The notes under the pieces are model-generated. The model was not told the origin of the DNA, ran no database searches, and was given only the letters and a program-made list of their open reading frames with translations. Below are positions 3,611 to 23,644 of a stretch of DNA of 64,000 nucleotides, piece after piece. The DNA is from Ensifer canadensis (GTDB lineage: Bacteria > Pseudomonadota > Alphaproteobacteria > Rhizobiales > Rhizobiaceae), in contig NZ_CP083371.1 of assembly GCF_017488845.2 (NCBI RefSeq), forward strand, positions 248,001-312,000. Reading direction: 5' to 3'. The stretch's first letter is position 1. Each line of letters starts with the position of its first letter. The position numbers and the translations under genes are program-made.

Positions 3611-5321
3611 AGATCTTGGCTCCCAGCAGACGGCGCGCCATGAAGACGAACAAGGCCGTGATGATGACTTGGATGGTGGCAAGGGCGGAGACGGGTCCGT
3701 TGTCGCCCTGGGCATAGAGCTGCAGCATGGTCGAGCCGATGATTTCGGAGCCCGGCTGATAGAGGAAGACCGCCGTCACATACTCCTTGAAGAAGTGGAT
3801 GAAGAGCAGCGCGAAGCTGGAAAACAGCGCCGGCTTCAACAGCGGCAGGACGATGCGCGTCACCGTCGTCCACCAGTCGGCGCCGGAAATGCGCGAGGCG
3901 CGGTCAAGCTCCTCACCGATCTGCGACAGCGCCGGTGCGATCGCACCGAAGCCGATCGGAATGTAGCGCACGACAAAGGCGGCGATCAGGATCCAGATCG
4001 TGCCGCGGATCATGTCGAGGCCCGGGACCCAGACCACGGCATAGAAGAAGCCGAGGCCGGCGATGATGCCGGGCAGCGAGCGCGGGAACAGCGCGACATA
4101 TTCCAGCGCGCGGCGGAAGCGGAATTCGGAACGCTTGGCGACAAGCGCGATGAGCACGACGCAGGCGGTGCCGATGATGCCGCCGAGGAAGGAGATGACG
4201 ACGGAATTGAGGATCGCCCTGACATATCCCGGCTGATTGAAGATCAGCTCGAAGTTGGCAAGGGTCAGTAGCTTCCAGAACGGGACCAGCGGCGTCAGGA
4301 AGCTGACGCTGGCGCGCATGAAGATGCCCGCAAAGACGGCGACGATGGTGAAGAGCACATAGGCCGCGACGGCGGCGAATGCGACCCAGCGCCAGTGTCC
4401 GAGGTCGACGAGCGAGGGGCGGGAGGCCTTGCCGCGCACGGTGACGAAGCGACCGCTGTCCTTCATCAACCGGCCCTGCAGCCAGACGAGCAGACCGACG
4501 ATCACAAGCAGCATGACCGCGCCGGCGCCGACGATGCCGTAGTCGGATTGCACCGCGGCGTTGATGCCCTGGTCATAGAGGAAGGTCGTGACGGTATGAA
4601 TGCCGCTCGGGCCGCCGAAAACCAACGGGATTGCCAGCATCTCGATGCCGATGACGAAGTTCAGAACAGCGGAATAGACCATGGCCGGCCGCATCATCGG
4701 TACGGTGATGCTGATTAGCGCTCGCATCGGGCTGGCGCCGGCCGAGCGGGCAGCATCTTCCAGCTGGGCATCGGCCTTGGTGACGGCGCCGATGCACATG
4801 AGATAGGCGAGCGGCGCCTGGCTCAAGCCCGCAACGATGCTCATGCCGGTCAGGCTGTAGAGGTTCCACGGGCTGAGTCCGGTGCTCGCCTTGAAGGCGA
4901 GGGTGATATAGCCCGACGGTCCGTACATGGTGAACCAGCCGAAGGCCATGACGAGGTTGCTCACGAAAAGCGGCCAGATCAGGATCTCGCCGATCCATTT
5001 GCGTCCGGGCAGATTGGTGCGGCCGACGATGACGGCCATAACCGAGCCGAACAGCTGGGCAACGACCATCGTGACGACGGCGAAGAACAGCGTGTTGAGC
5101 ACGATCTTGCCCATGCCCGCCTCGGTGAACAGGCGAACGAAGTTGCCGGCGGTGACGACGGCGTCGGGCTTGTAGAGCGGCCGGTCGAGAAAGGCCTGGA
5201 GAATAATGGGCGCAATCGGCCCGATCACCAGGATCGTGGTCAAGATGCTTACGGCCCAGAAGGTGATGGTCGACCGGTCACGCGTGGCGCTCGGTGCCGA
5301 CCCTGCTGTGAGCTCGGTCAT
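3603..5321 (-). CDS. ABC importer permease, fused double-domain (FbpB-like)
   Basis: A 572-residue inner-membrane protein with about twelve hydrophobic segments, made of two homologous binding-protein-dependent permease domains in one chain, as in iron(III) and 2-aminoethylphosphonate transporters. Each half has the EAA loop: DAQLEDAARSAGASPMRALISITVPMM-like in the first half (near residues 215-240) and GEELDRASRISGADWW in the second. I start it at ATG 5321 (MTELTAGS), since the 60-residue upstream extension is Arg/Pro-rich and not membrane-like. It is followed by the ATPase gene with an 8-base overlap and preceded by the binding-protein gene with a 127-base gap. Confidence 0.92.
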   Translation of the reverse strand: MTELTAGSAPSATRDRSTITFWAVSILTTILVIGPIAPIILQAFLDRPLYKPDAVVTAGNFVRLFTEAGMGKIVLNTLFFAVVTMVVAQLFGSVMAVIVGRTNLPGRKWIGEILIWPLFVSNLVMAFGWFTMYGPSGYITLAFKASTGLSPWNLYSLTGMSIVAGLSQAPLAYLMCIGAVTKADAQLEDAARSAGASPMRALISITVPMMRPAMVYSAVLNFVIGIEMLAIPLVFGGPSGIHTVTTFLYDQGINAAVQSDYGIVGAGAVMLLVIVGLLVWLQGRLMKDSGRFVTVRGKASRPSLVDLGHWRWVAFAAVAAYVLFTIVAVFAGIFMRASVSFLTPLVPFWKLLTLANFELIFNQPGYVRAILNSVVISFLGGIIGTACVVLIALVAKRSEFRFRRALEYVALFPRSLPGIIAGLGFFYAVVWVPGLDMIRGTIWILIAAFVVRYIPIGFGAIAPALSQIGEELDRASRISGADWWTTVTRIVLPLLKPALFSSFALLFIHFFKEYVTAVFLYQPGSEIIGSTMLQLYAQGDNGPVSALATIQVIITALFVFMARRLLGAKIYG

Positions 5322-5448
5322 GGCAATAGTCCTCGAAAGCCGTCCGCGAACGCGAAAGACGGTCGTCAGGCTTCGTAGAGTTGAAAATGAGGGCAGAGGA
5401 ACCGCCGGCCGACCGTATCGCGGCCGACGGTTGCTGAGTCGAGGCCCG

Positions 5449-6561
5449 TTAGTTGCCGGCCATCGCGGCGGTCCACTTGGTGGCAAAGCCCGCAGCGTCA
5501 TCGATGATCGCCTTGTCGAAGCCGACGGCGATCAGGTTTTCCATGCCTACCTTGGCAGCGATCGCCTGATAGGTGTAGCGAACCTCGGCTTCTTCGACGT
5601 CCTCGCGATAAGGCGTCAGTCCGCCCTTGCCGACCTGCGTCTGGCCCTTCTGGCTGAGCAGATAGTCGACGAACAGTTTTGCCGAGTTCGGGTTGGCCGC
5701 CTCGCTCGGGATGCCGAGGCCGCGAAGCATGACCGGCGTTCCGTCATCGGGGAAGGCAAAGCCGAGGATCTCGCCGCCGGGCTGCTCCAGGCGGGGGAAG
5801 ATGGTGATGCCGGAGACGGCGATGCCGACGAGATATTCGCCGGTGGCGATCTTCTCGTTCATCGGGCCGCCTGAGACTTCACCGCGGATCATCGGGCCGA
5901 TTTCGCGCAAGCCCTTCCAGCCGTCGTCGCCCTTGACCTGCAGCGTCTTCCACCAGGCAGCAAGCCCAAAGGAGTTGCGGGCGGCGTCATAGGTGGTGAT
6001 CTTGCCGTCGAACGTCGCCTTGTCGGCGGCTGCCGCCTTGACGAGCGAGGCGAAACCGGTCGGGCGCTGGCCCTCCGGCAGCAGGGCGGCATTGTAGGTG
6101 ATGACGAGCGGGTCCGCTGACATCACGTAGATGCCCGGGTAAGGATTGGCGAAGCCCGGCAGGCGTTCGGTTTCCGGGCTGGCATAATCGAGCATGCGGC
6201 CCTCGCTGCCATAGCGTGCCCAGCGGTCGTTTGCGCCCGAGACCAGGATGTCGGCGGTGCGCGCACCGCTGCCAGCTTCGGCTTCCCAGCGGGTGTGCAC
6301 GGTGCCGGAGCCGAGGTCGAGCGTCTCGATCTTGATCCAGGGATAGAGTTCGTTGAAGCCCTTGATGACAGGCTGCCAGTTGTTGTCGGCCATGTTGGAA
6401 TAGACGACGAGGCCAGCTTCCTTGCGCGATGCTTCGACGATCTGGCCGTAATCGGCCGGATAGTACTCAGGCAGCTTCGGCTCCTGGGCAAAGGCGCTGG
6501 TCGAGACCATCGCCGATGCGGCCAGCAGCCAACCGGCGAGCTCTCTCTTCAAATAGGACAT
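5449..6561 (-). CDS. ABC importer periplasmic binding protein (FbpA-like family)
   Basis: A 370-residue secreted protein. The first 26 residues form a Sec signal peptide ending in STSAFA, and the mature part (GQIVEASRKEAGLVVYSN, then WIKIETLDLGSG and YNAALLPEGQRPTGFASL) is that of the class that binds Fe3+, aminoethylphosphonate, thiamine or small carboxylates. The start ATG at 6561 has a near-perfect GGGAGGA site and overlaps the iclR stop as TGATG. Because the same operon carries CoA-dependent carbon-acid enzymes and no iron genes, a carboxylate ligand is more likely than iron, but this is inference. Confidence 0.9.
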   Translation of the reverse strand: MSYLKRELAGWLLAASAMVSTSAFAQEPKLPEYYPADYGQIVEASRKEAGLVVYSNMADNNWQPVIKGFNELYPWIKIETLDLGSGTVHTRWEAEAGSGARTADILVSGANDRWARYGSEGRMLDYASPETERLPGFANPYPGIYVMSADPLVITYNAALLPEGQRPTGFASLVKAAAADKATFDGKITTYDAARNSFGLAAWWKTLQVKGDDGWKGLREIGPMIRGEVSGGPMNEKIATGEYLVGIAVSGITIFPRLEQPGGEILGFAFPDDGTPVMLRGLGIPSEAANPNSAKLFVDYLLSQKGQTQVGKGGLTPYREDVEEAEVRYTYQAIAAKVGMENLIAVGFDKAIIDDAAGFATKWTAAMAGN

Positions 6562-8192: not shown

Positions 8193-9311
8193 TCAGCGTG
8201 CAACCGCTTCGACGATCCGGCGGCTGGCCGAAACGATGTCCGTGTCCTGAAGCAACGCGCCGCCGATCAGATACATCACGTCTTGGCCGTAGGCTTCGCG
8301 CATCTCCGGCACACGGCTAAGATTCATGCCGCCACCTGGCGCCGGCACGATCGCCTTCGGGCCACCCATGTCGTCGGCGCAAGCCTTGGCGATCGACTGG
8401 CATTCCTCGCGAGTGAAACCGAAACGGCCGCCGAAATTGGGGTAGATTGCCGCGTCGGCGCCCATCAGGCGCTGCAAGGCGCCGTAGAAGCAACGATGGG
8501 AAAAGCCGAGATCCGGCGAGACGACGTTGGCGCCCGAAAATGCCGGGTGCGAAACGATCGGCAGGGTGAAGTTAGGATCGGACGCCAGCGTGTGGATGAC
8601 GTCGTAGCCGGCCAGTGCCGGAGATATCATGACGGCGCCGGCGCCGGCTTCTTCCGCCATCTTCGCCCGTTCGAACAGCTCTTTTGACGGCGCGGTGATG
8701 TTCGGCACGAAACTCGCCTGCCCGCCACTCTTGGCATTGGCTTCGCCGACAGCGTCGACGCAGGCCGCCAGTCGCTCGGCGAATGGTGACGTCCTTTGAT
8801 CGACCAATCCGTGGTCGTCCTTGACGAAATGCATGCCGCCGAGCGCGAAGTCGTGCGCGCGGCGCGCCAGTTCGGACGTAGACAATCCGACCGGCTTGAT
8901 GGCCGACATCAACAGCGGTTGCGCGCCGATGCCGGCTTTTTGCCGCAGCCCGGCAATGCCATGTCGCGGACCATGGCAGAGAGCAAGGATGCCCTTGGAC
9001 AGGCCGATGCCCTCGACCTTCAATCCCGGTTTGATCGAACTGTTGCCGAAGACGATGTTGAGGAATTGTAGGAAGTCGCCGCCGACATCGTCCTCGCTAT
9101 AGGAAATGGTGGCGAGGTAGCCGGGGCGCCCGACCGGGTCCTGCGCGAGGGCTTCGAGCTTGCCGAGGATTTCATCCTCGACATAACCTTTGGGCACGAC
9201 ATCGCGCGGGATTTCGACCGTCTGTTCCAGGGCGATATCCAGCGCCCGTGCGCGCGCCTCGGCTTCATCTGCGGCCCTGACGTAATAGCTGACGGTAAAC
9301 CGGGGCGCCAT
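8193..9311 (-). CDS. RuBisCO-like protein (form IV RLP)
   Basis: A 372-residue member of the RuBisCO large-chain superfamily, shorter than photosynthetic RuBisCO. It keeps the core barrel: SAIKPVGLS (K139, the KPKLGL region), GGMHFVKDDHGL (residues 158-169), and the phosphate-binding glycines PAPGGGMN (325-330) and LIGGALL (348-354). The Lys-Asp-Asp-Glu metal box of true RuBisCO reads K164-D-D-H167 here, and the loop-6 Lys is absent (NFGGRFGF, 292-299), so CO2 fixation is very unlikely. Known RLPs do enolisations or isomerisations in methylthioribose salvage, or decarboxylation in acid-sugar catabolism. Its operon carries mtnK, mtnA and a split transketolase, so I infer it acts on a ketose-1-phosphate made by MtnA. 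The start ATG shares one base with the transketolase stop (TGATG), with GGAGG upstream. Confidence 0.9.
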   Translation of the reverse strand: MAPRFTVSYYVRAADEAEARARALDIALEQTVEIPRDVVPKGYVEDEILGKLEALAQDPVGRPGYLATISYSEDDVGGDFLQFLNIVFGNSSIKPGLKVEGIGLSKGILALCHGPRHGIAGLRQKAGIGAQPLLMSAIKPVGLSTSELARRAHDFALGGMHFVKDDHGLVDQRTSPFAERLAACVDAVGEANAKSGGQASFVPNITAPSKELFERAKMAEEAGAGAVMISPALAGYDVIHTLASDPNFTLPIVSHPAFSGANVVSPDLGFSHRCFYGALQRLMGADAAIYPNFGGRFGFTREECQSIAKACADDMGGPKAIVPAPGGGMNLSRVPEMREAYGQDVMYLIGGALLQDTDIVSASRRIVEAVAR

Positions 9312-10312
9312 CAGAGCGCCTCCGCCTTCTGTGCCGAATGCACGTGGTCGAGACGAACCTCGGTCAGTTCGTCCTCGCCGATTTCGAGCGATCTGCCGGT
9401 AAGCTCCTCGATTGCCGACACCAGCGCGCCGGCATCAAGGCCGTACTTCTTCATCAGGTAAGGCTTCGAGGCGCCATGGGCAAAAGTGTCCTTCAGACCG
9501 AGGCGCTTCAGACGGACGCCAAGCCCCTCTTCGGCGAGGATCTCGGCCACCAACGATCCGAGCCCGCCGACGATGGTGTGGTTCTCGAGCGTGACGATGC
9601 CCTTCTTGCCGCGCGCAGCCTTGATCAACCCGTCGCGGTCGAACGGCTTGAGCGTCGAGGCGTGCAGGTGATGCAGCCCGATCCCGCGGGCTTCGATCGG
9701 CCGTGTCGCCCGCAGGGCCTCTTCGGTGCAGACGCCCGAGCTGACGACGAGGATGTCGTCGCCTTCCGAGAGCGTGCGCAGTTTGTTGAAGGCGAACGGC
9801 GTAGAAAAAAGCCGTGGAACTTCGCCGCGAAGGACGCGGACATAAACAGGACCGTCGATCGCATCGGCAACCTCGAGCACGGTCTCGACCTCGGTCGCGT
9901 CGCCGGTCTCGAAGATCGTCATGTTCGGCACGGCGCGCAGGACGGCGATGTCTTCGATGGCCTGGTGGGTGATACCGCCCGGCGTGGTGATGCCCGGCAG
10001 GAAGCCCATCAGCCGGACCTTGCGATTGGAATAGGCGATCGAATTGATCAACTGATCGTACGGGCGGCGGTAGAGAAAGACCGAGAAGGTGTGGATGAAC
10101 GGCCGATAACCCTGCATGGCAAGCCCGCCGGCGAAGGAGAGCATGTTCTGCTCAGCCATCCCCAGCGACAGGAACTGCTCCGGATGCCGATCACGGAAAC
10201 CGTCGACCTCGCAGGAAGAGGTGAGGTCAGCCGAAAGGCAAAGCACTTCCGGGCGCGCTGTCGCGAAAGCCTCGAATGCTCTCGCATAAGGGCGGTTGAC
10301 GATTTCGACCAT
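9311..10312 (-). CDS. Split transketolase, C-terminal subunit (pyrimidine-binding)
   Basis: A 333-residue protein covering the Pyr and C-terminal domains of transketolase. The key Glu that activates the thiamine diphosphate aminopyrimidine is in LGMAEQNMLSFAGGLA (about residues 50-65), followed by FSVFLYRRPYDQLINSIAYSN. It pairs with the N-terminal subunit gene two bases upstream; together they equal one transketolase. In this locus the enzyme would cut or transfer a two-carbon unit from the sugar phosphate produced by the RLP, or replace a DXP-synthase-like step; both are inference. A plain housekeeping transketolase is unlikely given the operon. Confidence 0.9.
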   Translation of the reverse strand: MVEIVNRPYARAFEAFATARPEVLCLSADLTSSCEVDGFRDRHPEQFLSLGMAEQNMLSFAGGLAMQGYRPFIHTFSVFLYRRPYDQLINSIAYSNRKVRLMGFLPGITTPGGITHQAIEDIAVLRAVPNMTIFETGDATEVETVLEVADAIDGPVYVRVLRGEVPRLFSTPFAFNKLRTLSEGDDILVVSSGVCTEEALRATRPIEARGIGLHHLHASTLKPFDRDGLIKAARGKKGIVTLENHTIVGGLGSLVAEILAEEGLGVRLKRLGLKDTFAHGASKPYLMKKYGLDAGALVSAIEELTGRSLEIGEDELTEVRLDHVHSAQKAEAL

Positions 10313-10314
10313 GG

Positions 10315-11250
10315 TCAGGCCCCTTCCATTTCATTCGGGCTCACGCCCAGTTCGACAGCCAATGCCGCCTGCATCTCAAGCCGCTCCTCGGCGCTCTTGA
10401 AGCGCACGTAATGAAGGCGGGGAAAGCGCTTCTGCAGGAAGTTCATTCCCTGGAACGGCGACGTATTGGCGAGGATGATCAGCGGCTTGCCGGGCTCGGC
10501 GCTGTTGGCCGCGTCGCGCAGGGCTTGGAGATCGTGGCCGTCGATCGAGCGGCAGGTGGCCCCGAAGGGCTCGACCCGGCCGGCGAGATCGCCGAGATCG
10601 AGAACCGAAGACATGGCGCCGTCGCATTGCTGGCGGTTGACGTCGACGACGACGCGGATGTTGTCGATCCGGTGGTGGGCCATGGCGGCAAGGCACTCCC
10701 AGGTTTGCCCCTCCTGGAATTCCCCGTCGGACATATAGACCCAGACCTTGCCTGGCTCGTTCCGTTTCTTGCGGGCAAAGGCGACGCCGGAGGCCATGGA
10801 AAGCCCCTGTGCCAGCGAGCCGGTTGTAACCTCCATGCCCGGGCTGTGTTCGGCGCCGATCATTTCGACCGAGCTTCCGTCCTTGTTGAAATGGTCGAGC
10901 GCGCTATCGTCCATACGGCCGACTTCGATGAGCGCGCTATAAATCACCAGCGCATAGTGCGCCGGCGAGATGAAGAAGCGGTCGTACTCGGGTGCTGCCG
11001 GGCCGTGATAGCCCGCGCCGGTGAAGGCCTCCGGGTTATCGGCAGAGGGCACGCCGCGAAACGGCAGCGGTACTTTGGGCAAGGTCGGCTCGCCGAGCGT
11101 CAGGATCTCGTTGTAGAGCAAGGCAAGGCTTTCGGCGGCCGAGCAGGCCTGGCTCAGATAGCCGCCGTTGTTCTTCATCGTGTGGAAGAAGACGCGGCGG
11201 CGAATGCCGAGCGCGATTTCTTCGGTGGTCTTCTGGTTTGTAAGGCTCAT
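10315..11250 (-). CDS. Split transketolase, N-terminal subunit (TPP-binding)
   Basis: A 311-residue protein matching the N-terminal thiamine-diphosphate domain. The diphosphate/Mg2+ motif reads YMSDGEFQEGQTWECLAAM with the later Asn in VVVDVNRQQCDG, an SDG in place of the usual GDG. Other family marks are FFISPAHYALVIYSAL and EHSPGMEVTTGSLAQGLSMA, which match the transketolase HxxxxxY and GSLGQGL segments. Start ATG 11250 has a good AAGGAG site; only three bases separate it from the mtnA stop and two from the C-terminal subunit gene, so stoichiometric expression is expected. Confidence 0.9.
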   Translation of the reverse strand: MSLTNQKTTEEIALGIRRRVFFHTMKNNGGYLSQACSAAESLALLYNEILTLGEPTLPKVPLPFRGVPSADNPEAFTGAGYHGPAAPEYDRFFISPAHYALVIYSALIEVGRMDDSALDHFNKDGSSVEMIGAEHSPGMEVTTGSLAQGLSMASGVAFARKKRNEPGKVWVYMSDGEFQEGQTWECLAAMAHHRIDNIRVVVDVNRQQCDGAMSSVLDLGDLAGRVEPFGATCRSIDGHDLQALRDAANSAEPGKPLIILANTSPFQGMNFLQKRFPRLHYVRFKSAEERLEMQAALAVELGVSPNEMEGA

Positions 11251-11253
11251 CGG

Positions 11254-12348
11254 TCAGCTCCTTTCCGGAAACAGCGCTTTGAGGCCTTCGGGCGAGGGCA
11301 CGGCGACGCCGCGCTCGGTGATGAGGCCAGTGATGAGCCGGGCCGGCGTCACGTCGAAGGCCGGGTTTGCCGAAGGGCTGCCTTCTGGCGAAACGCGAAC
11401 CGAGATGATCGAACCGTCGGGGCCGCGGCCCTGGACGAAGCTCACCTCGTCGCCGGTGCGCTCCTCGATCGGAATCTCCTTCACGCCGTCCTTGACCGTC
11501 CAGTCGATGGTCGGCGAAGGCAGCGCGACATAGAAGGGGACGTCGTTGTCGCTGGCGGCAAGCGCCTTCAGATAGGTGCCGATCTTGTTGCAGACATCGC
11601 CATTGGCGGTGGTGCGGTCGGTGCCGACGATCACCATGTCGACTTCGCCGTGCTGCATCAGGTGGCCGCCGGCATTGTCGACGATCAGCGTGTGCGGGAC
11701 ACCATGGCCGTTCAATTCCCAGGCTGTCAGCTGCGCACCCTGGTTTCGCGGCCGGGTCTCGTCGACATAGACGTGGACGGGGATGCCCGCCTCCGTCGCC
11801 ATATAGATCGGCGCGGTCGCCGTTCCGTAGTCGACCGTTGCGAGCCAGCCGGCATTGCAGTGGGTGAGGATGTTGACCGGCTCGCCCGACTTCTTGGTTG
11901 CGGCGATCTCGCGGATGATCTTGAGGCCGTTGGCGCCGATCGCACGATTGAGTTCAACATCCTCCTCGGCGATTTCGGCGGCGCGCTGGTAGGCGGCCAC
12001 GGCACGCTCTTCCACCGGCAGCGGACGGAGGAACTGGCGCATGGCGTCGAGCGCCCAGCGCAGGTTGATCGCCGTCGGCCGGGTTTCGTTGAGTTCCTCC
12101 CAGACCGCGTCGAGATGGCGGTCAGACGGGTCGTCGGCCATTGCGATGGCGATGCCGTAGGCGGCGGTGACGCCGATCAGCGGTGCGCCGCGCACCCACA
12201 TGTCGCGGATGGCAACGGCGACGTCGGCGACGGTTTTCAGCGTGACGATCCGGAACTCATGCGGCAGCCAGCGTTGGTCGATGATGTCGACCGACCGGCC
12301 GTCGGCGTTGAGCCAAATCGTATGGTAGTGCTTTTCTCCGACTTTCAC
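11254..12348 (-). CDS. mtnA: S-methyl-5-thioribose-1-phosphate isomerase-like protein
   Basis: A 364-residue aldose-1-phosphate isomerase of the MtnA / eIF2B-alpha-like family, converting methylthioribose-1-phosphate (or 5-deoxyribose-1-phosphate) to the matching ribulose-1-phosphate. The catalytic Cys is in [18 protein letters not shown] (C164) and the catalytic Asp in [14 protein letters not shown] (D244); the substrate segment [16 protein letters not shown] (50-65) is intact. I take GTG 12348 as start: it overlaps the mtnK stop as GTGA and gives the usual N-terminus. The longer in-frame start at 12462 would lie well inside mtnK. Confidence 0.92.
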
Positions 12349-13616
12349 GAAAGTGTCTCCTGCTGAAGCCGTTCCGCAGTGGCGCGAATATCCCTGAGGC
12401 TCGCAATGCGATCCCGGTTGACGGCAAGATGGCGCCCGAGCTTCAGCGCCTTGCTTTCGCATTTGGCGCGGCGGCTGAGGTCGGCGATGGTTTCGAAATC
12501 GGCATTGTGGGCAAGGCCGAGGATGCGGCGCAGGATCTCCACCCCGGCAAAGCCGAGCATCTCGCGGTAGATCTCATCAAGAACGATGGTCAGCGCCTGT
12601 TCGGCGCCGAACGGGTCGTCGCGGTCTTCGAAAAGGCTCGCCTGATAGAGGATACCCTTGCGCTCGCTGCGCCACAGTGCCGAAAACTCGTCGCAGAAGG
12701 TTTGCCAGATCGTCTCTGCCGTATCCAGCAGGTAGGCGCGCATCTGATCGCGTTCGCCGGCAGCGCTCTCGTGGCCTTCCTGCGAAAAGTAGCTCATCCA
12801 GAAATTGGCGAGCAGCATACCGACATCGAAGCCGATCGGTCCGTAGAAGGCGAATTCCGGATCAATGACGCGCGTCTCGTCGTCGGTGACCATGACCGAG
12901 CCGGTATGCAGGTCGCCGTGGCAAAGGGTCTCGGCCTTGGCGGAAAAGATATGTTTTAGGCGCTGCGCTTCGACCTTCAAGTCACGGTCGCGGCGCAGCT
13001 CTTCGACCAGGCTGTCGAGATGCGGGGTCGTGTGCCGGTTCATCTCCGCCTCGAAGTAAGGATCTGAGAAAACCAGGTTCTCGGTGATATCGCAGAGTTC
13101 GACATTGTCGGCGAAAAGCGCGAGATCGGCCTTCTTGTCGCGCGTCGGCATCGAAAGATCCGAGCCGCGGAAAAGCGTGCGTGCCGCGAAGAGCCCGAGA
13201 TCGCGGCCGATCTTCGGCAGCTTGCGCCCTGCAATCAGAGCGCGCCGAAGGATCACGTGCGGCGTCAGATATTCCATGATGATCATCGCCTGTTCGGCGT
13301 CGAAGAACAGGATTTCCGGCACCATGCCCGGGTCGCGCGCCGCCTGGCGGGTGAGGGCGTGGTATTCGAAGTACGAGCGCTTCAGCGGCAGGGGCCAGCG
13401 CTCACCGACGAGCCGGACATAGGGCAGCGCCTGCTTGACGATCGCCGCGCCCTTCTCGCCCGTGACGATGAAGACGAGATTGAGGTTGCCGTCGCCGACC
13501 TCCTTGACCTGCCAGCGGCCATGCTCGCCGCCGATCCTGTCGCAAAGTGCTGCGTTGCCGCTCAGTCTCAATGGCAGCGTTTCGGCGCTCAGTGCCTCGA
13601 AAACGTACTTGTCCAT
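12345..13616 (-). CDS. mtnK: Methylthioribose kinase-like protein
   Basis: A 423-residue kinase of the MtnK family (APH-type fold) that phosphorylates C1 of 5-methylthioribose using ATP. Recognised by [11 protein letters not shown] (41-51), the catalytic loop [13 protein letters not shown] (231-243) with Asp235, and the metal motif [20 protein letters not shown] (252-271). It is the first gene of the minus-strand operon and has an AAGGAGGAGCC site. Because mtnB, mtnC/X and mtnD are not in the window and an RLP plus transketolase follow instead, the substrate could be methylthioribose or a 5-deoxypentose. Confidence 0.92.
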
Positions 13617-13675
13617 AGGCTCCTCCTTGTCCGCATGACCGGCCTTCGCCGCTCCTCGTCATGCTGTCGTGCCAT

Positions 13676-13739
13676 AGGTAAGTCGGCATTCTGTCAAATG
13701 TCAATCGCCTTGACATTTGATGGATAGCCATCCTAACCT
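13676..13739. promoter_or_regulatory. Divergent promoters with a perfect 27-bp inverted-repeat operator
   Basis: TCAAATGTCAA (13694-13704) and TTGACATTTGA (13710-13720) are perfect 11-base arms around TCGCC. Each arm contains TTGACA reading outward: 13710-13715 toward the importer operon (then 18 bases and TAACCT at 13734-13739) and 13704-13699 toward mtnK (then 17 bases and TTACCT at 13681-13676). The two -35 boxes therefore sit inside one symmetrical operator, so a bound regulator would shut both operons. The SorC-type protein at 17519-18499 is the natural candidate. Confidence 0.7.
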
Positions 13740-13759
13740 GACTTCATTGGGAGGAGAGC

Positions 13760-15283
13760 ATGAGCGAACAAGCAGTGTTTCGCGTCGAGGGCGTGCGCAA
13801 ATCCTTCGGGCCGATACCGGTTCTGAAGGGCGTCGATCTCGAATTGCGCAAGGGTGCCGTGACGGTGCTGATGGGCGCCAACGGCGCTGGAAAGTCGACA
13901 CTGGTGCGCATCCTCTGCGGCGTCTACGTCGGAGACGCCGGAGCCATGCAGCTGGATGATCTCCCTTTTTCGCCGACAACACCGGCGGAGGCGATCCGTG
14001 CTGGTGTGGTGACGGTTCACCAGAACATCAATGATGGCGTCGTTGCCGACCTCGACGTCGCGACCAACCTCACGCTCGACCGGCTGAACGGCCGCGGTGC
14101 GCGCCTGTTCTTCAACCCGCGCCGGGTAAGGCGCGAGGCAGCCGTCGTTGCCGCCCGCATGGGCCTCGCCATAGATCTTTCCGCTGATATCAACGATCTG
14201 ACGCTCGCCGACCGGCAGATGGTGGCGATCGCCCGCGCCATGGCGCACGAGCCGCAGGTGCTGATCCTCGACGAGCCGACGTCGTCGCTCTCGAGTGCCG
14301 AGGCCGATCGGCTGTTCGAGCTTCTCGACCGGCTGAAAGCCCGTGGGGTCGCGATCCTTTATATCTCGCACCGGATGTCCGACATCCGCAGGCTCGCCGA
14401 CAGCATCGTCACCCTGCGCGACGGGCGCATAACCGGCCGCTTCGAAGGCGCGGATCTGGACTATGAGGGTGCCGTCAATGCGATGCTCGGACAGAAAGTC
14501 TCGGCAGGCGACGTGACCGTGCGCGAAGGGCTCGGTTGCGTCTTTTCTGCCCAGGGACTGAAACTTACCGACACGTCGCGTCCGTTCGATCTCAAACTGG
14601 GCGATGGAGAAATCGTCGCGGTCACGGGCCTCGTAGGCGTCGGCAAGACGGCGCTGGCCGAGACGCTCTTCGGAGCCCGCCCGCCCGCCGCCGGCCAGAT
14701 GACGCTCGACGGCGCTTCCTATCGCCCGCAATCGACCGGCCAGGCGATTGCCAAGGGCGTGTTTCTGGTGGCGAAGGATCGATCCGACAGCGGCATCGTT
14801 CCCGATTTCAACATCTACGAGAATATCAGCCTGCCGTTCCTCAAGCGGCTGTCGCGCTTCGGCATAGCGAACCGCCGGTCCGAACGGGCGAAATCGCGGG
14901 CGCAGATCGCCGCCCTCGGCGTCGTCTGCCGCAGCGAGCGCGACGAAATGCAGACGCTTTCCGGCGGCAATCAGCAGAAGGTGATGGTCGGGCGGTGGCT
15001 TTCCGAGCCGTCGCGTCTCCTGATCCTCGACGAGCCTTTCCAGGGCGTCGACATCGCCGCACGCCGCGATATCGGCGCCAAACTGCGCGCCTCGGCGGCG
15101 GGTCGCGCCACTATCGTCTTCCTGACCGAACTCGACGAAGCTTTCGAGGTCGCCGACCGCATTCTGGTGATGTCGGAACACACTGTGGTCGGCGAGCATC
15201 GCAACGCTTCGGTCGACGTCGAGCGCCTCCTGCAGGAGATCGCCGGTCAACATCATCAGCAGGGACAGCCCCATGAGCAGTGA
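13760..15283 (+). CDS. Ribose-type (CUT2) sugar ABC importer ATPase, double cassette
   Basis: A 507-residue ATPase with two ABC cassettes, as in RbsA. The first cassette has Walker A GANGAGKST (39-47) and Walker B QVLILDEPTSSLSS; the second has a degenerate Walker A GLVGVGKTALAE, signature LSGGNQQKVMVGRWL and Walker B LLILDEPFQGVD. It starts at ATG 13760 behind GGGAGGAGAGC and overlaps the permease gene by 11 bases. It drives uptake of the pentose-like sugar handled by the divergent mtnK operon (context inference). Confidence 0.95.
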   Translation: MSEQAVFRVEGVRKSFGPIPVLKGVDLELRKGAVTVLMGANGAGKSTLVRILCGVYVGDAGAMQLDDLPFSPTTPAEAIRAGVVTVHQNINDGVVADLDVATNLTLDRLNGRGARLFFNPRRVRREAAVVAARMGLAIDLSADINDLTLADRQMVAIARAMAHEPQVLILDEPTSSLSSAEADRLFELLDRLKARGVAILYISHRMSDIRRLADSIVTLRDGRITGRFEGADLDYEGAVNAMLGQKVSAGDVTVREGLGCVFSAQGLKLTDTSRPFDLKLGDGEIVAVTGLVGVGKTALAETLFGARPPAAGQMTLDGASYRPQSTGQAIAKGVFLVAKDRSDSGIVPDFNIYENISLPFLKRLSRFGIANRRSERAKSRAQIAALGVVCRSERDEMQTLSGGNQQKVMVGRWLSEPSRLLILDEPFQGVDIAARRDIGAKLRASAAGRATIVFLTELDEAFEVADRILVMSEHTVVGEHRNASVDVERLLQEIAGQHHQQGQPHEQ

Positions 15284-16340
15284 ACAGATGAAACCCGCGG
15301 TGCCCGCCGCTTCCGCGTTGCCGGTGCTGCCGCCCACGGCCACGGTTGGCCTGCGCGATATCGCCATCAAATACGGTTTCCTTGTCCTTCTGGGCGGACT
15401 GGTCGTCTACTTCTCGCTGGTGACGAACGGGTTTTCCTCGCCGCAGAGCGCCGTCTTCATCCTGCAATCCGTGTCGATCACCGGCATCCTGGCGCTCGGC
15501 GTCACGGCGACGCTGGTTGTCGGCGGCTTCGACCTGTCGATCGGCTCGGTCGCGACCACGGCGATGATGGCGTCGTCCTATGTGATGGTGGTGATGGGCG
15601 GAGATGCGCTGACGGCGACGCTCGTCTGTCTGGCGATCGGCGTTCTCGTCGGGCTGATCAACGGTATCATCATCGTCTACATGCGTGTGCCGGACCTGCT
15701 CGCGACGCTCGGCATGATGTTCCTGCTGCTCGGCCTGCAGCGCATACCGACCGAGGGACGCTCTATCGCCGCCGGCATGACGCTTCCTGACGGCTCGGTC
15801 GCAACAGGCACTTTCAGCCCCGCTTTCCTGGCGCTTGGCCGCCATCGCTTCGACCTCATCCTGCCGAACCTCGTACCCGTCGCCGTCGTGGTGCTGATCG
15901 TGCTGGCGGTGCTGATCTGGTTCTTCCTCGAATACACCCGCTTCGGACGCATGATGTATGCGGTCGGCTCCAACGAGCGCGCCGCCGGCCTGGCTGGCGC
16001 TCCGGTCAACGCCTATAAGATCTCGGCCTATGTCATTTCAGGCGTCTTCGCGTCGATCGGCGGCATCCTGCTCGCCGCGCGCCTCGGCCGCGGCGACATC
16101 GCCTCGGGCAACAATCTCTTGCTCGATGCCGTCGCTGCCGCGCTGATCGGCTTTGCCGTCTTGGGGGCGGCCAAGCCGAATGCGTTCGGCACAGCGATCG
16201 GCGCGCTCTTCGTCGGCATCCTGCTCCAGGGCCTGACGATGATGAATGCACCCTATTACACGCAGGATTTCATCAAGGGCGCGGTTCTCGTCATCGCCCT
16301 GATCTTCACCTTTGCGCTCTCGAAAAGAGGCAAACGCTGA
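15273..16340 (+). CDS. Ribose-type (CUT2) sugar ABC importer permease
   Basis: A 355-residue inner-membrane protein with about nine hydrophobic segments after a short Pro/Ala-rich N-terminus. The segments LALGVTATLVVGGFDLSIGSVATTAMMAS and TRFGRMMYAVGSNERAAGLAGAPV are typical of the RbsC family. It overlaps the ATPase gene and is followed 52 bases later by the binding-protein gene, so the three form one importer. Confidence 0.95.
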   Translation: MSSEQMKPAVPAASALPVLPPTATVGLRDIAIKYGFLVLLGGLVVYFSLVTNGFSSPQSAVFILQSVSITGILALGVTATLVVGGFDLSIGSVATTAMMASSYVMVVMGGDALTATLVCLAIGVLVGLINGIIIVYMRVPDLLATLGMMFLLLGLQRIPTEGRSIAAGMTLPDGSVATGTFSPAFLALGRHRFDLILPNLVPVAVVVLIVLAVLIWFFLEYTRFGRMMYAVGSNERAAGLAGAPVNAYKISAYVISGVFASIGGILLAARLGRGDIASGNNLLLDAVAAALIGFAVLGAAKPNAFGTAIGALFVGILLQGLTMMNAPYYTQDFIKGAVLVIALIFTFALSKRGKR

Positions 16341-16392
16341 CGGGAAAGCCCCGCCCGCGGACAACAAACGTTCACCAGTGGAGGAGACTGAA

Positions 16393-17436
16393 ATGAACAT
16401 GACACGCAGAGCATTGGGCAAGCTGGCGCTTGGCCTTGCCGGAACCGTGGCTTTCGCCACCGCTTCCTTTGCCGCCGATATGCCGAAGCCCTTCGACAAG
16501 CCGGCTGACGTCAAGATCGCGCTGGTGCGCTATCTCTCGACCGGCGATTTCTTCCAGTCCTACCTTGCCGGCGTGGAGGCGCAGGCAAAGGCCCTCGGCG
16601 TTCAGTTGCAGGTTCTCGACAGCCGCCAGGATGCAGCGCTGCAGGCCGACATGGTCGACCAGGCGATCGCGCTCGGCGTGCAGGGGATCATCATCCAGCA
16701 CGGCCTGACCGAATCGATGAAGGAAGCGGCACAGCGCGCCGTCGAGGCCGGTATCAAGGTCGTGGCCTTCGACGTGAACGTCGAAAACGAGAAAATCCCG
16801 CAGGTCGAACAGTCCGACCGGGATCTTGCCCGCCTTGCTCTGGAACAGGCGATCAAGGACAATGGCGAGAGCTTCAAGGCGGGCTACGTCTATGTCGCCG
16901 GCATCGCTCCGCTCGACCGTCGCGACGAGACCTGGAAGGAATTCAAGGGCAAGTATTCCGGGATCAACGAGGTCTCGCAATTCGGCACCATGGACAACCC
17001 GATTGCCAACTCGGTTGCCAACCAGGCGCGCTCGGTCATCTCCGCCAATCCCGATATCACCGTGATGTTCGCGCCCTATGACGAGTTCGCCAAGGGCGTC
17101 AAGATTGCGGTCGACGAAGCCGGTCTTTCGTCCAACGTGAAGATCTATTCCGCCGATATCTCGACCTCCGATATCGCGGCAATGCGCGAGCCGGATTCCG
17201 CCTGGGCTGCGACTGCCGCCACCAACCCGGCCGTGGTCGGACAAGTCTCGGTTCGCACACTCGCCATGCTGCTTGCCGGCGAGGATCCGGGCCGCAGCGT
17301 CATCGTGCCCCCGACGTTGATCACCCAGAAGGACCTGAACGATCAGGACATCAAGAACATGGAAGAACTCGGCACCAAGCTGCCGCAGTTCGCCCACGCG
17401 GATGTCGCCATGCCGGCGTGGATGCCGAAGCCCTGA
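16393..17436 (+). CDS. Ribose-type sugar ABC importer periplasmic binding protein
   Basis: A 347-residue secreted protein with a signal peptide of about 28 residues that begins MNMTRRALGKLALG and ends ASFA. The mature region (KIALVRYLSTGDFFQSYLAGVEAQAKALG, then GIIIQHGLTESMKEAAQRAVEAGIKVVAFDVN) is the periplasmic binding protein type 1 fold used for ribose, autoinducer-2, inositol and similar ligands. I start it at ATG 16393 behind GTGGAGGAGACTGAA; the longer in-frame start overlaps the permease and is not signal-like. The ligand is unknown; context suggests a pentose or methylthioribose-like sugar. Confidence 0.93.
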   Translation: MNMTRRALGKLALGLAGTVAFATASFAADMPKPFDKPADVKIALVRYLSTGDFFQSYLAGVEAQAKALGVQLQVLDSRQDAALQADMVDQAIALGVQGIIIQHGLTESMKEAAQRAVEAGIKVVAFDVNVENEKIPQVEQSDRDLARLALEQAIKDNGESFKAGYVYVAGIAPLDRRDETWKEFKGKYSGINEVSQFGTMDNPIANSVANQARSVISANPDITVMFAPYDEFAKGVKIAVDEAGLSSNVKIYSADISTSDIAAMREPDSAWAATAATNPAVVGQVSVRTLAMLLAGEDPGRSVIVPPTLITQKDLNDQDIKNMEELGTKLPQFAHADVAMPAWMPKP

Positions 17437-17459
17437 TCACGCGGTTTGTTGATGAAAGT

Positions 17460-17481
17460 GGGGCGGTCGAAAGACCGCCCC
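17460..17481 (+). terminator. Strong hairpin after the importer operon
   Basis: GGGGCGGTC, loop GAAA, GACCGCCCC: a perfect 9-bp GC stem with a stable tetraloop, 24 bases after the binding-protein stop and followed by GTTTG. It sits between the convergent importer operon and the regulator gene (ending 17519) and could serve both. Confidence 0.75.
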
Positions 17482-17518
17482 GTTTGCGTACTGCCAGCCC
17501 TACGCATCACAACGCGCT

Positions 17519-18499
17519 TTAAGTCGTCGTTGCGCCTGCCTTGCCGAGACCGTCCCGGCTCCAGCGCTCCATGACGCGGCGCGCCATTGATGTCGTGACC
17601 ACCAGATGCGAGGCGAAGCCGCCCTTCAGCGCCGCCATCAGCGGTTCGAATTTGCTCTCTTCCTGGACGACCAGCATGCGCTTCTCGATGGCGCGGATCG
17701 ACGAGAGATCGGCGGAGATGCAGCGCCGATTGTGGGCGCAGTTCACCCATTGGCCGTCACCATCGATCAGCTGTCCGGCGATGACACCGACAGCGCCTTC
17801 CTCGCCCATGCGGTGCATCTCGCTGGCGCTGAGCGCGCCGCACTTGACGAGGTGGCTGTCGTCCTCGATGCCGCCGACGGAATAGAGCGCCAGATGACAG
17901 TCGGCGATCGTCGACAGCTGCTCGCGGATCACCGGCTCGCCGCGAAGCTCCTCGGCCAGCCGCTCGGACGACAGCACGAGCGGCGCGTAGAAATTGATGC
18001 CTTCGGCATTGAGCCGGCGGGCGATCTCCGTCGTGCACTGGTCCGGCCGATAGGAATAGGGCGCGCCGAGATTGCCGCAGAGCTGGACCACAGTGACGCC
18101 ACGCAGGTCGGCGAAGGGCATCACGTCGGCGATATGATAGACCGTTCGCCCCCAGGCGACGCCGACGCGATCGCCCTTGTTGATCAGTTCGAGAAAGACG
18201 GATGCAGCCAGCACCGGCATCTCAGCCGTCGGGTCCATGGCCTGCCGGTCCTCCGGCACGATCCAGGCCGCCGTGACCCCGGTTGCATCCTCGAGCTCGC
18301 GCGCCAGCACGTCGTCGGTGAAAAGCTCGGTCGAAGTGGTGATGTTGACGATCCCGGTCTCGCGTGCTCGCCTGAGATAGGTCGCGACAGAGGCGCGGGA
18401 GATCCCCAGTTTCTGCGCAACTTCGTCCTGCCGTAACCCATGGCTATAGTAGAGCCACGCGGCTTTGTGCATGATCTGATCGGTGTTGCGGATAGGCAT
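17519..18499 (-). CDS. SorC/DeoR-type sugar-sensing transcriptional regulator
   Basis: A 326-residue regulator with an N-terminal helix-turn-helix (YYSHGLRQDEVAQKLGISRASVATYLRRARETGIV, about residues 17-51) and a large C-terminal sugar-phosphate-binding domain (DRVGVAWGRTVYHIADVMP, VTVVQLCGNLGAPYSY, YSVGGIEDDSHLVKCG). This family usually senses a phosphorylated sugar produced by the pathway it controls. Start ATG 18499 has AAGGA 6 bases upstream. It lies convergent to the importer operon. Copies of TGACAT in its own upstream region match the arms of the 13694-13720 operator, suggesting it controls the locus and itself. Confidence 0.9.
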   Translation of the reverse strand: MPIRNTDQIMHKAAWLYYSHGLRQDEVAQKLGISRASVATYLRRARETGIVNITTSTELFTDDVLARELEDATGVTAAWIVPEDRQAMDPTAEMPVLAASVFLELINKGDRVGVAWGRTVYHIADVMPFADLRGVTVVQLCGNLGAPYSYRPDQCTTEIARRLNAEGINFYAPLVLSSERLAEELRGEPVIREQLSTIADCHLALYSVGGIEDDSHLVKCGALSASEMHRMGEEGAVGVIAGQLIDGDGQWVNCAHNRRCISADLSSIRAIEKRMLVVQEESKFEPLMAALKGGFASHLVVTTSMARRVMERWSRDGLGKAGATTT

Positions 18500-19152: not shown

Positions 19153-20379
19153 TCAGGTCTGGCAGCAGCGGGCATCGACCGGCAGTGTCGTCGCCCCGCC
19201 ATCGGCGTGATGCAGCGTGAAATGATCGAAGTTGGCGATCGATGCGCAGGAGTGGTTGGGAAAGACCCGCACACGGCTTCCGAGGGTCAAGGGGCGTCCC
19301 GAGAAGGGAACGAAGCCATGTTCTTCAGACAGCCGCTCGAGCGTCCAAACACCTGTTTCGCCATCGCCTTCGGCGCTGACGACGGTGCCGAAGCCGGCGC
19401 CGCCCATGCCGTGTGCGCCGCGATCGGAGCTCATCGACTTGGAGCCGGCGTCGATGATGAAGTGCGTGTCATTGGAGGCAACGACGCGCGCAACCACCGA
19501 GAGCGCCAGGTCGTCGGCCGTGCAGATGCCGAGCCTGAGCGCGGTTCCGTCGAGGAACACGTAATTGCCGGGCCGGACGCAGTCGACCTCCTGGGACAGA
19601 GGCGCGCCGGCACAGGTCGGCGTTGCGCCGACGGAAATGCAGTCGACGGCGATGCCGCGGTCCCGAAGCCGGCCGGCGAGACCGGCAAGGTCTGCGGCCT
19701 CATCGCGGGCGACCTTGGCCAGGCCCTGCGGGCCAGTGGCCGCGTAGGAATGGCCGGCGTGCGAAAGCAGGCCGGCAAAGTGCAGGCCGTCGGAAGCGGC
19801 GATCTGGGCGCACAATTTGAGCGCAGCCGGATCGTTCGGCTTGAGGCCGACGCGGCCGAGGCCGACATCGACCTTGAGGAAGACGCCGATTTCGACACCG
19901 TGACTTGTGGCGGCCGCCGACAACGCTTCGACGCCCGTCGCGCTTGCCGCAATCGTGCGCAGCTGCGTGCCGCGCGCCTTGACCACGGGCAGCAAACGGT
20001 CGAGCGACTGCGGCTTGACGATGGGATAGGCAAGGATGATCGACGGTATCCCGGCTTCCGCAAAGACCAGCGCCTCGCTTGGCTTGGACGCGGTGATGCC
20101 GCGGGCGCCAAGTGCCAGCTGCCGTCGCGCGACATAAAGGCTCTTGTGCGTTTTCACGTGCGGAAACATCGAGACGCCGGCTTGATCGGCACGCTGCTGC
20201 ATGGCCTCAATGTTGCGGGCAAGGCGCAATTCGTCGACTTCGATATAGGGCGTCGGTCGCTCTGCGGCCGCAGGGCGCAGGAAGCCGTTGGCTTTCGGTT
20301 GCGCCGGGGCGCTGTCGATGTCTGCGGTCACGTTGCCGGTAGCGTTCGCAGCCGCCAGCATCACTTCGGAAGTGTTCAT
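19153..20379 (-). CDS. D-threonine aldolase / D-serine dehydratase-like PLP enzyme
   Basis: A 408-residue enzyme with the alanine-racemase-type barrel fold of the D-threonine aldolase / eukaryotic-type D-serine dehydratase family, which needs pyridoxal phosphate and a divalent metal. The PLP Lys is in FPHVKTHKS (K76). The C-terminal metal pair is seen in PNHSCASI (H376 and C378). Substrate-pocket segments LSHAGHSYA and VGATPTC are present. The first about 40 residues are Ala-rich and not conserved-looking, so a downstream start is possible; ATG 20379 has only a weak site. Located next to an oligopeptide importer and, further on, an M55 D-aminopeptidase, it likely breaks down a D-hydroxy-amino acid such as D-threonine or D-serine. 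Confidence 0.85.
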   Translation of the reverse strand: MNTSEVMLAAANATGNVTADIDSAPAQPKANGFLRPAAAERPTPYIEVDELRLARNIEAMQQRADQAGVSMFPHVKTHKSLYVARRQLALGARGITASKPSEALVFAEAGIPSIILAYPIVKPQSLDRLLPVVKARGTQLRTIAASATGVEALSAAATSHGVEIGVFLKVDVGLGRVGLKPNDPAALKLCAQIAASDGLHFAGLLSHAGHSYAATGPQGLAKVARDEAADLAGLAGRLRDRGIAVDCISVGATPTCAGAPLSQEVDCVRPGNYVFLDGTALRLGICTADDLALSVVARVVASNDTHFIIDAGSKSMSSDRGAHGMGGAGFGTVVSAEGDGETGVWTLERLSEEHGFVPFSGRPLTLGSRVRVFPNHSCASIANFDHFTLHHADGGATTLPVDARCCQT

Positions 20380-20420
20380 CTCGGAATGCTCTGATCTGAA
20401 GAGGGGATTGGTTGTCGTCG

Positions 20421-21373
20421 TCAGCCCGTTGCGACCTGTCGCACGAAATGGCTGGATGAGACCTGTTGCATCGGCAGTTCGCGCGGCACGAAGTCCGGCG
20501 GGCGCACGGCGCTTGGGATCTCGTCGGACATCGGCTGGCGGCCTTCCGGGCGGCGTGTCGGGTCGGCGATCGGAACGGTCGACAGGAGCTTGCGGGTATA
20601 GGGATGCTGCGGATTGCCGAAGACCGAACGGCGGTCGCCGATCTCGACGATTTCGCCGAGATACATCACCGCGACACGGTGGGCGATGCGCTCGACCACG
20701 GCCATGTCGTGGCTGATGAACAGGAGGGCGATCTGCATCTCGCGCTGCAAGTCCATCAGGAGGTTGATGACCTGCGCCTGGATCGTCACGTCGAGCGAGG
20801 CGACGGCTTCGTCGGCGACGATCAGGCGCGGGTTGAGCGCAAGCGCGCGGGCGATGCAGATGCGCTGGCGCTGGCCGCCGGAAAACGCGTGCGGATAGCG
20901 CTCGAGATGCTCAGGCGACAGCTCTACTTTGGAGAGAAGCTCGGCGGCGCGGGCGCGCATGACCGCGGTCGAGCCCAGCTTGTGAACGCGCATAGGGTCC
21001 ATCAGCGACTGCTCGATCGTCATGCGCGGGTTGAGCGACGAGAACGGATCCTGGAAGACCATCTGGGCGTCGCGTCGAAACCGCGCGAGCATAGTGCGCG
21101 GCGCGCCGATCAACTCGGTTCCGTCGAACCGGATCGAGCCCGAACGCGGTCGGTCGAGCTGCATGATCGAACGGGCAACCGTCGACTTGCCACAGCCGGA
21201 TTCACCGACCAGCGCCAGGGTCTCTCCCGGAAAGATGTCGAAGGAGACGTTCTCCACCGCGTGCACCCGACCCGAGACATGGCCGAACAATCCGGCCTTC
21301 AAATCGAAGCGCGTCACCAGGTTGCGCACCTCGACGAGCGGCTTTCGGGTTTCCTTCATCGGCGCGGACGCGT

Positions 21374-21377
<4 letters not shown>
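20421..21377 (-). CDS. Oligopeptide ABC importer ATPase (DppF/OppF-like)
   Basis: A 318-residue ATPase with Walker A LVGESGCGKSTVAR, Q-loop MVFQDPFSSLNPR, signature FSGGQRQRICIARAL, Walker B LIVADEAVASLDVT and the C-terminal oligopeptide-type extension GDRRSVFGNPQHPYTRKLL. It overlaps the partner ATPase gene by four bases. The two ATPases are on the minus strand, while the binding protein and permeases they should serve are on the plus strand at 23645-27611. Confidence 0.94.
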
Positions 21378-22300
<923 letters not shown>

Positions 22301-22567
22301 CAGCACATGCACCCGATTTCGAAGGGACGTTGCGCTTTCAGGTCTCGCAACGAGGTCGCATCCTGTCAATACGGAAGGGAGGTGCGATCAGCCCTGTCCG
22401 CCGGGGCGCTGGAGCAGACATCGGCCTCGCTCCCAATCCGCTGCCGCCGCAAAATCCAGTGAAATCAATGTGTCACGATTGTGGCAGGCAAAACTATGTG
22501 CTTTGCGCATTGTATCGCCTGTCTTCGCATATCGCGCCGGTCGTGCGATTTCGGGCGGATTGACGCC

Positions 22568-23521: not shown

Positions 23522-23644
23522 GCCGGCCCTCATGCGTGTTTTGCATAGTCTATCCTAACTACACATTGGACAGACCTGCAAGCGCTCTTCTAGCCTCCCT
23601 TATAACGAGAAGAAAACTTCCGCCTCCACCAAATGGGAACAACG

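Follow-up and report, generated by a model that had tools for sequence, protein, structure and literature searches.

Two described bacterial systems stand closest to the locus considered here. In the 5'-methylthioadenosine (MTA)-isoprenoid shunt of Rhodospirillum rubrum and Rhodopseudomonas palustris, the isomerase MtnA is followed by a RuBisCO-like protein (RLP) of the DeepYkr type, which is reported to convert 5-methylthioribulose-1-phosphate to 1-methylthioxylulose-5-phosphate (PMC5893883). The dihydroxyacetone phosphate (DHAP) shunt and 5-deoxyribose disposal (MtnK-MtnA-Ald2 and DrdKIA) begin with the kinase MtnK and with MtnA; reported features are a substrate-induced use of outside sugars by E. 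coli and a cleavage that yields a C3 phosphate together with a C2 unit (PMC12632272, PMC10986504, PMC6079011). The window, 64,000 nucleotides of an Ensifer canadensis contig (NZ_CP083371.1, positions 248,001 to 312,000), carries a cassette that combines MtnK and MtnA with an RLP and with a transketolase split into an N-terminal (TKN) and a C-terminal (TKC) half. Judged from its sequence, the front end and the RLP type would be known, and the new element would be a transketolase partner in the place of the cupin. We propose that the cassette is an inducible operon that breaks down 5-substituted riboses via MtnK, MtnA, RLP, and transketolase, with 5-methylthioribose, which arises as a by-product of methionine use, as the most likely and 5-deoxyribose as a possible substrate. 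We give this reading a probability of about one in two.

The locus shares MtnA, a DeepYkr-like RLP, and active-site motifs with the MTA-isoprenoid shunt (PMC5893883), but it has a kinase rather than a phosphorylase, a split transketolase rather than a cupin, and a dedicated importer. In its own genome, the best match to the MTA phosphorylase (MtnP) model TIGR01694 reached 93 bits (cut-off 275), and a search for the cupin 1-methylthioxylulose-5-phosphate methylsulfurylase returned generic cupins only (best E 2e-5). The front end and the proposed C3 plus C2 split are common to the DHAP shunt, but the window cassette has no aldolase, and the RLP and transketolase would yield glyceraldehyde-3-phosphate, not DHAP. 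Many relatives, unlike the window cassette, carry both the aldolase and the RLP-transketolase set. Neither MtnB, MtnX, nor MtnD of the Bacillus-type methionine salvage pathway was among the cassette proteins scanned, and no genome-wide search for them was made.

Two-subunit catabolic transketolases occur in other sugar clusters with different substrates, namely AptA/AptB (apulose-4-phosphate) and SqwG/SqwH (sulfofructose); to our knowledge, neither pair adjoins an RLP. The window resembles them in holding a split transketolase in a sugar-catabolic cluster. OiaX and OiaT of apionate catabolism are likewise RLPs in rhizobial sugar clusters. However, an assignment of the window RLP to OiaX was rejected with 61 of 700 bits, far under the cut-off, and this genome (8.09 Mb in 6 contigs; G000 in our comparison set) holds a separate OiaX above it (782 of 700 bits; contig C5:362227-363042, L088:7207-8463). 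Next to the gene for the latter lie a kinase resembling OiaK (435 of 700 bits) and ATP-binding cassette (ABC) genes for sugar, in a separate apionate-type cluster. No report of an RLP working with a transketolase was found in open-licence PubMed Central texts, a scope that leaves subscription papers mostly outside and so gives no proof; twelve texts that mention both point, by title and opening abstract lines, to other subjects. The window RLP would be the first known to us in such a role.

The argument is built on what can be read directly: gene identities, synteny, the exchange of cupin and transketolase, phylogeny, and active-site residues. An earlier note had described five packed minus-strand genes (gaps of -4, 3, 2, and -1 bases in the order mtnK, mtnA, TKN, TKC, RLP) transcribed away from a ribose-type importer, along with a SorC regulator and a shared operator. 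The coordinates, the domains, and a palindrome in the divergent region agree with this description (Table 1). The mtnA gene starts with GTG and overlaps mtnK by 4 bases.

Synteny was assessed at 44 loci, defined as matches to the window RLP in genome contigs. Eight genes (RLP, TKC, TKN, MtnA, MtnK, ATPase, permease, and binding protein) occur together, with their order kept, at 42 of the 44; at one of these, L044, several genes are broken. The exceptions are L026, a 7.8-kb contig with TKN-TKC-RLP only, and L036, a lone RLP matched over residues 43-370. The regulator lay inside the fetched flank at eight loci. Chance clustering is therefore excluded by the synteny.

Within the cassette, the order TKN-TKC-RLP is constant in all 24 RLP-bearing loci checked, one of them on a Vibrio plasmid. 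The rest is rearranged, with TKN-TKC-RLP lying across the importer from MtnK in L169, L170, L171, L172, L176, and L177. Distances of the RLP over these 24 loci correlate with those of TKC (0.94) and TKN (0.92), to which shared species history contributes. Among 247 Rhizobiaceae genomes, MtnK was found in 97 (E 1e-50) and a TKC of the clade defined below in 31 (E 1e-100); both occur in 28 (Fisher p 4e-10, not corrected for kinship), within 15 kb of each other in 25 genomes.

Links between MtnA and the transketolase also appear in other settings. In G202 (L083:7149-9119), MtnA and TKN form one 656-codon frame, possibly a natural fusion in this draft genome, and past the SorC gene lie a nucleoside transporter of the NupC type and a phosphorylase for purine nucleosides. 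A phosphorylase precedes TKN-TKC-RLP in G973, where MtnA is divergent and the set has no sugar kinase. Ponticoccus alexandrii, also without a kinase, has the order phosphorylase, deaminase, mtnA, molybdopterin oxidoreductase, TKN, TKC, RLP, with a PnrA-type importer adjoining. MtnA stands elsewhere in the genomes of G714 and G686, where two EamA-type transporters follow the RLP.

The window RLP matches PF00016 with 88 bits (cut-off 30.1) and shares 98% identity with a protein labelled Ensifer adhaerens. An assignment to the MtnW type was rejected, the scores being far under the cut-offs (TIGR03332, 153 of 514 bits; PRK09549, 198 of 409 bits). Among solved chains, it comes nearest to 3qfw (E 5e-72), labelled in the search just as RuBisCO large subunit, which we take to be RLP1 of R. 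palustris. A class-wide search of 385 genomes returned, besides G000, two genomes with RLP-TKC-TKN (G344 and G202) and 14 with an RLP at 38-41% identity; all further matches were distant, at E 2e-22 or weaker. Thirteen of these 14 genomes have a strong cupin (E 3e-54 or better) close to the RLP and on its strand. In the 14th, G227, no cupin was found, and the fetched locus stops 84 bases beyond the match, presumably at a contig end. Strong cupins are absent from all six transketolase-type genomes (G000, G662, G714, G686, G344, and G202), where the only matches, if any, were weak ones to generic cupins at E 1e-5 or weaker.

A maximum-likelihood tree was built from 47 RLPs, with long branches flagged (L083, 3qfw, and 4nas among them). 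In it, the 15 cupin-linked RLPs (the 14 and 3qfw) form one clade (98/99; one branch throughout the 200 bootstrap trees). The 17 rows linked to a transketolase make up the three other lineages at an unresolved fork beside it, so they may form a clade of their own or be the stock that gave rise to the cupin kind. In an alignment of 20 sequences, both kinds have a one-residue deletion past the lysine motif of the active site. Both also read K-D/E-DHG instead of KDDE, apart from the Vibrio RLP, which has KEDDS where KDDHG would stand. A 1-phosphate to 5-phosphate ketose isomerisation, as the earlier note had suggested, would be the best reading of the RLP by its kinship to the cupin-linked proteins, i.e. 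a 1,3-isomerase.

The two transketolase halves have split transketolase chains as best solved matches. A phylum-wide search (398 genomes, limit 1e-60) placed them in a clade with members at 62-91% identity in five other genomes, the next matches being at 42% and less. This gap is not empty, because members at 54-58% exist (G202 and G920). We aligned 29 clade members (24 with and five without an adjoining RLP), eight sister split transketolases from the loci at hand, and E. coli TktA. The thiamine-diphosphate fold is present, and all 29 preserve His66, His261, Glu411, His473, and Arg520; TKC retains the catalytic Glu and the THQ motif. Ser385 is kept in 28 of the 29, with Asn in Vibrio. The position of His100, which we take to be a ligand of the donor C1 hydroxyl, is Ile in every clade member, and in the eight sisters it is Ser or Asn. 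Asp469, presumably like His26 among the donor ligands, is replaced by Gly in the clade. An ordinary duplicate of the transketolase was rejected on account of these clade-wide changes of the donor pocket; this genome also encodes a normal transketolase. The Ile suggests that the C1 pocket is altered towards a non-polar C1 substituent, a role in which hydrogen and SCH3 would both fit. A title in the reference list of PMC3352088 concerns the role of the histidine in substrate recognition.

The proposed pathway starts with uptake of a 5-substituted ribose, which the importer would supply to MtnK for conversion to the 1-phosphate and to MtnA for isomerisation to the 5-substituted ribulose-1-phosphate. 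The RLP would then shift the carbonyl by 1,3-isomerisation to give 1-methylthio- (or 1-deoxy-) D-xylulose-5-phosphate. These three reactions are assigned from the named families of the proteins. A ketose with a phosphate at C1 is not an expected transketolase substrate, and the order MtnK, MtnA, RLP, transketolase would be chemically sensible because the flip to the 5-phosphate xylulose form overcomes this obstacle. The predicted RLP product has the D-threo ketose form and would be usable as a donor. TKN-TKC would cut its C2-C3 bond and set free glyceraldehyde-3-phosphate, and a two-carbon unit bearing a methylthio (or methyl) substituent would stay on thiamine diphosphate. This unit might be released as methylthioacetaldehyde, transferred to an aldose, or relieved of methanethiol by elimination, and no cassette gene decides between these fates. 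The transketolase would thus hold the place of the cupin methylsulfurylase of the MTA-isoprenoid shunt, in a glyceraldehyde-phosphate counterpart of the DHAP shunt. A linear path of this kind had been put forward in the earlier note. Comparison supports it well through the constant TKN-TKC-RLP linkage, the cupin swap, the MtnA-TKN frame, the operons with a phosphorylase for the kinase, and the C1 pocket; the substrate of the transketolase and the fate of the two-carbon unit are what we infer.

Several observations weigh against this pathway. The window RLP shares only about 40% identity with its characterised kind. The loss of His26, replaced by Tyr in all 37 aligned clade and sister proteins, is not specific to the clade. 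Arg358 and His461, presumably two canonical ligands of the donor phosphate, are lost, which casts doubt on phosphate binding; in the window they are Asn and either Phe (multiple alignment) or Leu (pairwise), respectively. Five clade transketolases (L115, L174, L175, L178, and L179) have no RLP in the fetched stretch. One of them, G691 (L115), has no RLP or MtnA genome-wide at E 0.001 and still keeps Ile at the His100 position. Moreover, a bifunctional aldolase/short-chain dehydrogenase can be seen, at least in part, past the binding-protein gene in 32 of the 44 relatives, where the fetched DNA ends, so the RLP-transketolase module would usually not be the sole drain. As for the substrate, none of the reductases described below reaches the BisC cut-off. 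The Ponticoccus deaminase fits the NCBIfam model of 5'-deoxyadenosine deaminase (301 of 522 bits) better than that of MTA/S-adenosylhomocysteine (SAH) deaminase (220 of 779), all below cut-off. The phosphorylases of G202, G973, and Ponticoccus are of the inosine/guanosine type, which would suit plain ribose too.

The aldolase branch shows how far the cassettes differ. The aldolase/dehydrogenase lies whole between the binding protein and the SorC-type regulator in L117, L180, L181, L189, and L190 (NF006192, 1158 bits, cut-off 639). In the window, no class II aldolase was found in this interval, and the regulator adjoins the binding protein there as it does in L003-L008, L030, and L033. The absence of MtnB, cupin, and aldolase from the locus, claimed in the earlier note, thus holds for the window; as to the aldolase, it fails for the cassettes of most relatives. 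Likewise, a transketolase instead of an aldolase describes the window and these few loci, whereas in most relatives a branch like the DHAP shunt runs alongside. The module as a plain replacement of the aldolase was therefore rejected, both being present in most cassettes. Elsewhere in this genome, homologues with 52% and 55% identity over the aldolase part were found, plus two weaker ones. The former belong to aldolase/short-chain dehydrogenase sets (L191 and L192, on contigs C2 and C4) with a SorC-type regulator and a sugar ABC importer, and without MtnK.

Cassettes of importer, MtnK, MtnA, and aldolase without RLP or transketolase also exist (L150 and L180), which indicates that the front end serves ribulose-1-phosphate cleavage. 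Around MtnK in the 97 genomes that have it, both partners occur within 15 kb in 15, the transketolase only in 10, the aldolase only in 36, and neither in 36. The first class is undercounted because the aldolase limit of 1e-120 excluded copies at 46-52% identity in the cassettes of G755, G835, G747, and G936. R. palustris is reported to run RLP and aldolase branches in parallel from one ribulose-1-phosphate (PMC5893883), which provides a precedent for the two-branch arrangement.

The nature of the C5 substituent is a question on which neighbouring genes bear. Genes of BisC-family molybdenum S/N-oxide reductases stand beside the transketolase or MtnA at three loci (L115:5300-7555, L173:12430-14748, and L186:4779-7055). 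The protein of Ponticoccus scores 901 bits (cut-off 1018), that of G691, beside the transketolase, 766 bits, and that of G973, beside MtnA, 909 bits. Two sulfatase-family genes follow the reductase gene in L173. The best solved match of the Ponticoccus deaminase is 4f0r, an MTA/SAH deaminase. The reductase genes and this deaminase point to a thioether substrate, and the BisC-family neighbours hint that methylthio sulfoxides may be involved.

A first alternative is that 5-deoxyribose is the main substrate, in which case the RLP would form 1-deoxy-D-xylulose-5-phosphate, and the transketolase glyceraldehyde-3-phosphate and an acetaldehyde-level unit. We consider this unlikely, although it has several points in its favour. 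In the DHAP shunt of E. coli, MtnK and MtnA are reported to accept 5-deoxyribose as well as methylthioribose (PMC12632272, PMC10986504), and their paralogues in B. thuringiensis to work on 5-deoxyribose (PMC6079011). Ile in the C1 pocket suits hydrogen or methylthio alike, and the model preferred by the Ponticoccus deaminase is that for 5'-deoxyadenosine. However, the S/N-oxide reductase genes fit a thioether, and 1-deoxyxylulose-5-phosphate already enters isoprenoid synthesis, with no transketolase needed.

Unsubstituted ribose or ordinary nucleosides would imply a scheme in which MtnA converts ribose-1-phosphate to ribulose-1-phosphate, the RLP converts this to xylulose-5-phosphate, and a dedicated but ordinary transketolase step leads to the pentose phosphate pathway. 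The ribose-type importer, the nucleoside-type phosphorylases of the three genomes named above, the NupC transporter of G202, and the PnrA-type importer of Ponticoccus would all agree with it. It is nevertheless quite unlikely. The clade transketolases are without the C1-hydroxyl histidine, the window MtnK scores above the methylthioribose kinase cut-off, the genome already has a normal transketolase, and the three reductase loci again disagree.

The RLP and transketolase could also be a separate module for another sugar, merely sharing importer, regulator, and promoter with MtnK, MtnA, and aldolase. The frequent aldolase and G691, without RLP and MtnA, would fit, as would two further loci. On a plasmid of Vibrio nigripulchritudo (L188:7932-12551), an FGGY kinase comes after TKN-TKC-RLP, and MtnA is not among the genes listed for the stretch; perhaps this is the same module acting on another ketose. 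In G920 (L175:7333-11880), a divergent clade transketolase has an AraD-like class II enzyme and a XylB-like kinase of the FGGY family as neighbours, with no RLP in the stretch. The clade transketolase of G941 stands with an SsuA/NMT1-type importer. Such contexts indicate that the clade has other uses or that these copies are remnants. A separate module is decidedly unlikely, given the single MtnA-TKN frame of G202, the sets of phosphorylase, MtnA, TKN, TKC, and RLP without a sugar kinase, and the window cassette itself, which joins MtnK-MtnA to RLP-transketolase with no aldolase.

A broader form of the proposed pathway would regard RLP and transketolase as a general catabolic device that turns 5-substituted ketose-1-phosphates into 1-substituted ketose-5-phosphates and these into glyceraldehyde-3-phosphate. 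In the methylthio case, the thiamine adduct would beta-eliminate methanethiol and leave an acetyl unit, a step modelled on phosphoketolase or sulfoacetaldehyde acetyltransferase. This extension is speculative, and its chances are slim. If it were true, methylthioribose would be used independently of oxygen, both its carbon and methanethiol would be recovered, and neither cupin, dioxygenase, nor aldolase would be needed.

The coordinates of the cassette genes, the operator-like palindrome, and the regulator are collected in Table 1. The palindrome is recognisable in all 14 aligned divergent intergenic regions, although L009, L043, L117, and L180, a cassette with the aldolase only, carry it as a variant. 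Exact half-sites TGACATTTGA occur twice in the window, both here (0.10 expected; two or more in 1 of 100 shuffles). The SorC-type protein would be the candidate to bind TCAAATGTCAA-N5-TTGACATTTGA.

Table 1. Cassette features and regulatory elements, in window positions
Feature	Position	Strand	Basis
RLP (DeepYkr-like RuBisCO-like protein; proposed ketose 1,3-isomerase)	8193..9311	-	PF00016; 3qfw E 5e-72; tree; KDDHG and shortened KP-xGL motifs
TKC, C-terminal half of split transketolase (pyrimidine-binding and C-terminal domains)	9311..10312	-	PF02779, PF02780; 6yaj best solved match
TKN, N-terminal half of split transketolase (diphosphate-binding)	10315..11250	-	PF00456; 6yak best solved match
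mtnA, 5-methylthioribose-1-phosphate isomerase family	11254..12348	-	TIGR00512 442 bits, cut-off 279
mtnK, 5-methylthioribose kinase family	12345..13616	-	TIGR01767 490 bits, cut-off 275
Operator-like palindrome TCAAATGTCAA-N5-TTGACATTTGA, divergent promoter region	13694..13720		Motif search and aligned intergenic regions
Sugar ABC importer ATPase, two ABC domains	13760..15283	+	PF00005, 2 stretches
Sugar ABC importer permease, ribose type	15273..16340	+	PF02653
Periplasmic sugar-binding protein, ribose type	about 16393..17436	+	PF13407; start placed at signal peptide; frame 16312-17436
SorC-type (DeoR/LsrR-like) sugar-responsive regulator	17519..18499	-	PF04198, 168.9 bits

Elsewhere in the window, on the minus strand at 2531-5501, an ATPase and a permease are nearest to models of a putative 2-aminoethylphosphonate importer (PhnT2/PhnU2), below cut-off, and CoA-transferase- and CitE-like genes adjoin them at 449-2598. 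In the region 19153-25573, a protein resembling D-threonine/3-hydroxyaspartate aldolase (BhcC model, 122 of 690 bits) has a LysR regulator and an ABC importer of the peptide type in its vicinity.

If the proposed pathway is true, ribulose-1-phosphates made by MtnA would have a further fate beside the dehydratase, cupin, and aldolase routes. A function would be found for an RLP branch that sources name just generically, even as 'transcriptional regulator', and for a clade of split transketolases with an altered donor pocket that is found in 31 of the 247 Rhizobiaceae genomes, in further Alphaproteobacteria, and on a Vibrio plasmid. The pathway would also illustrate a way for bacteria of soil and plants to live on external methylthioribose or 5-deoxyribose.

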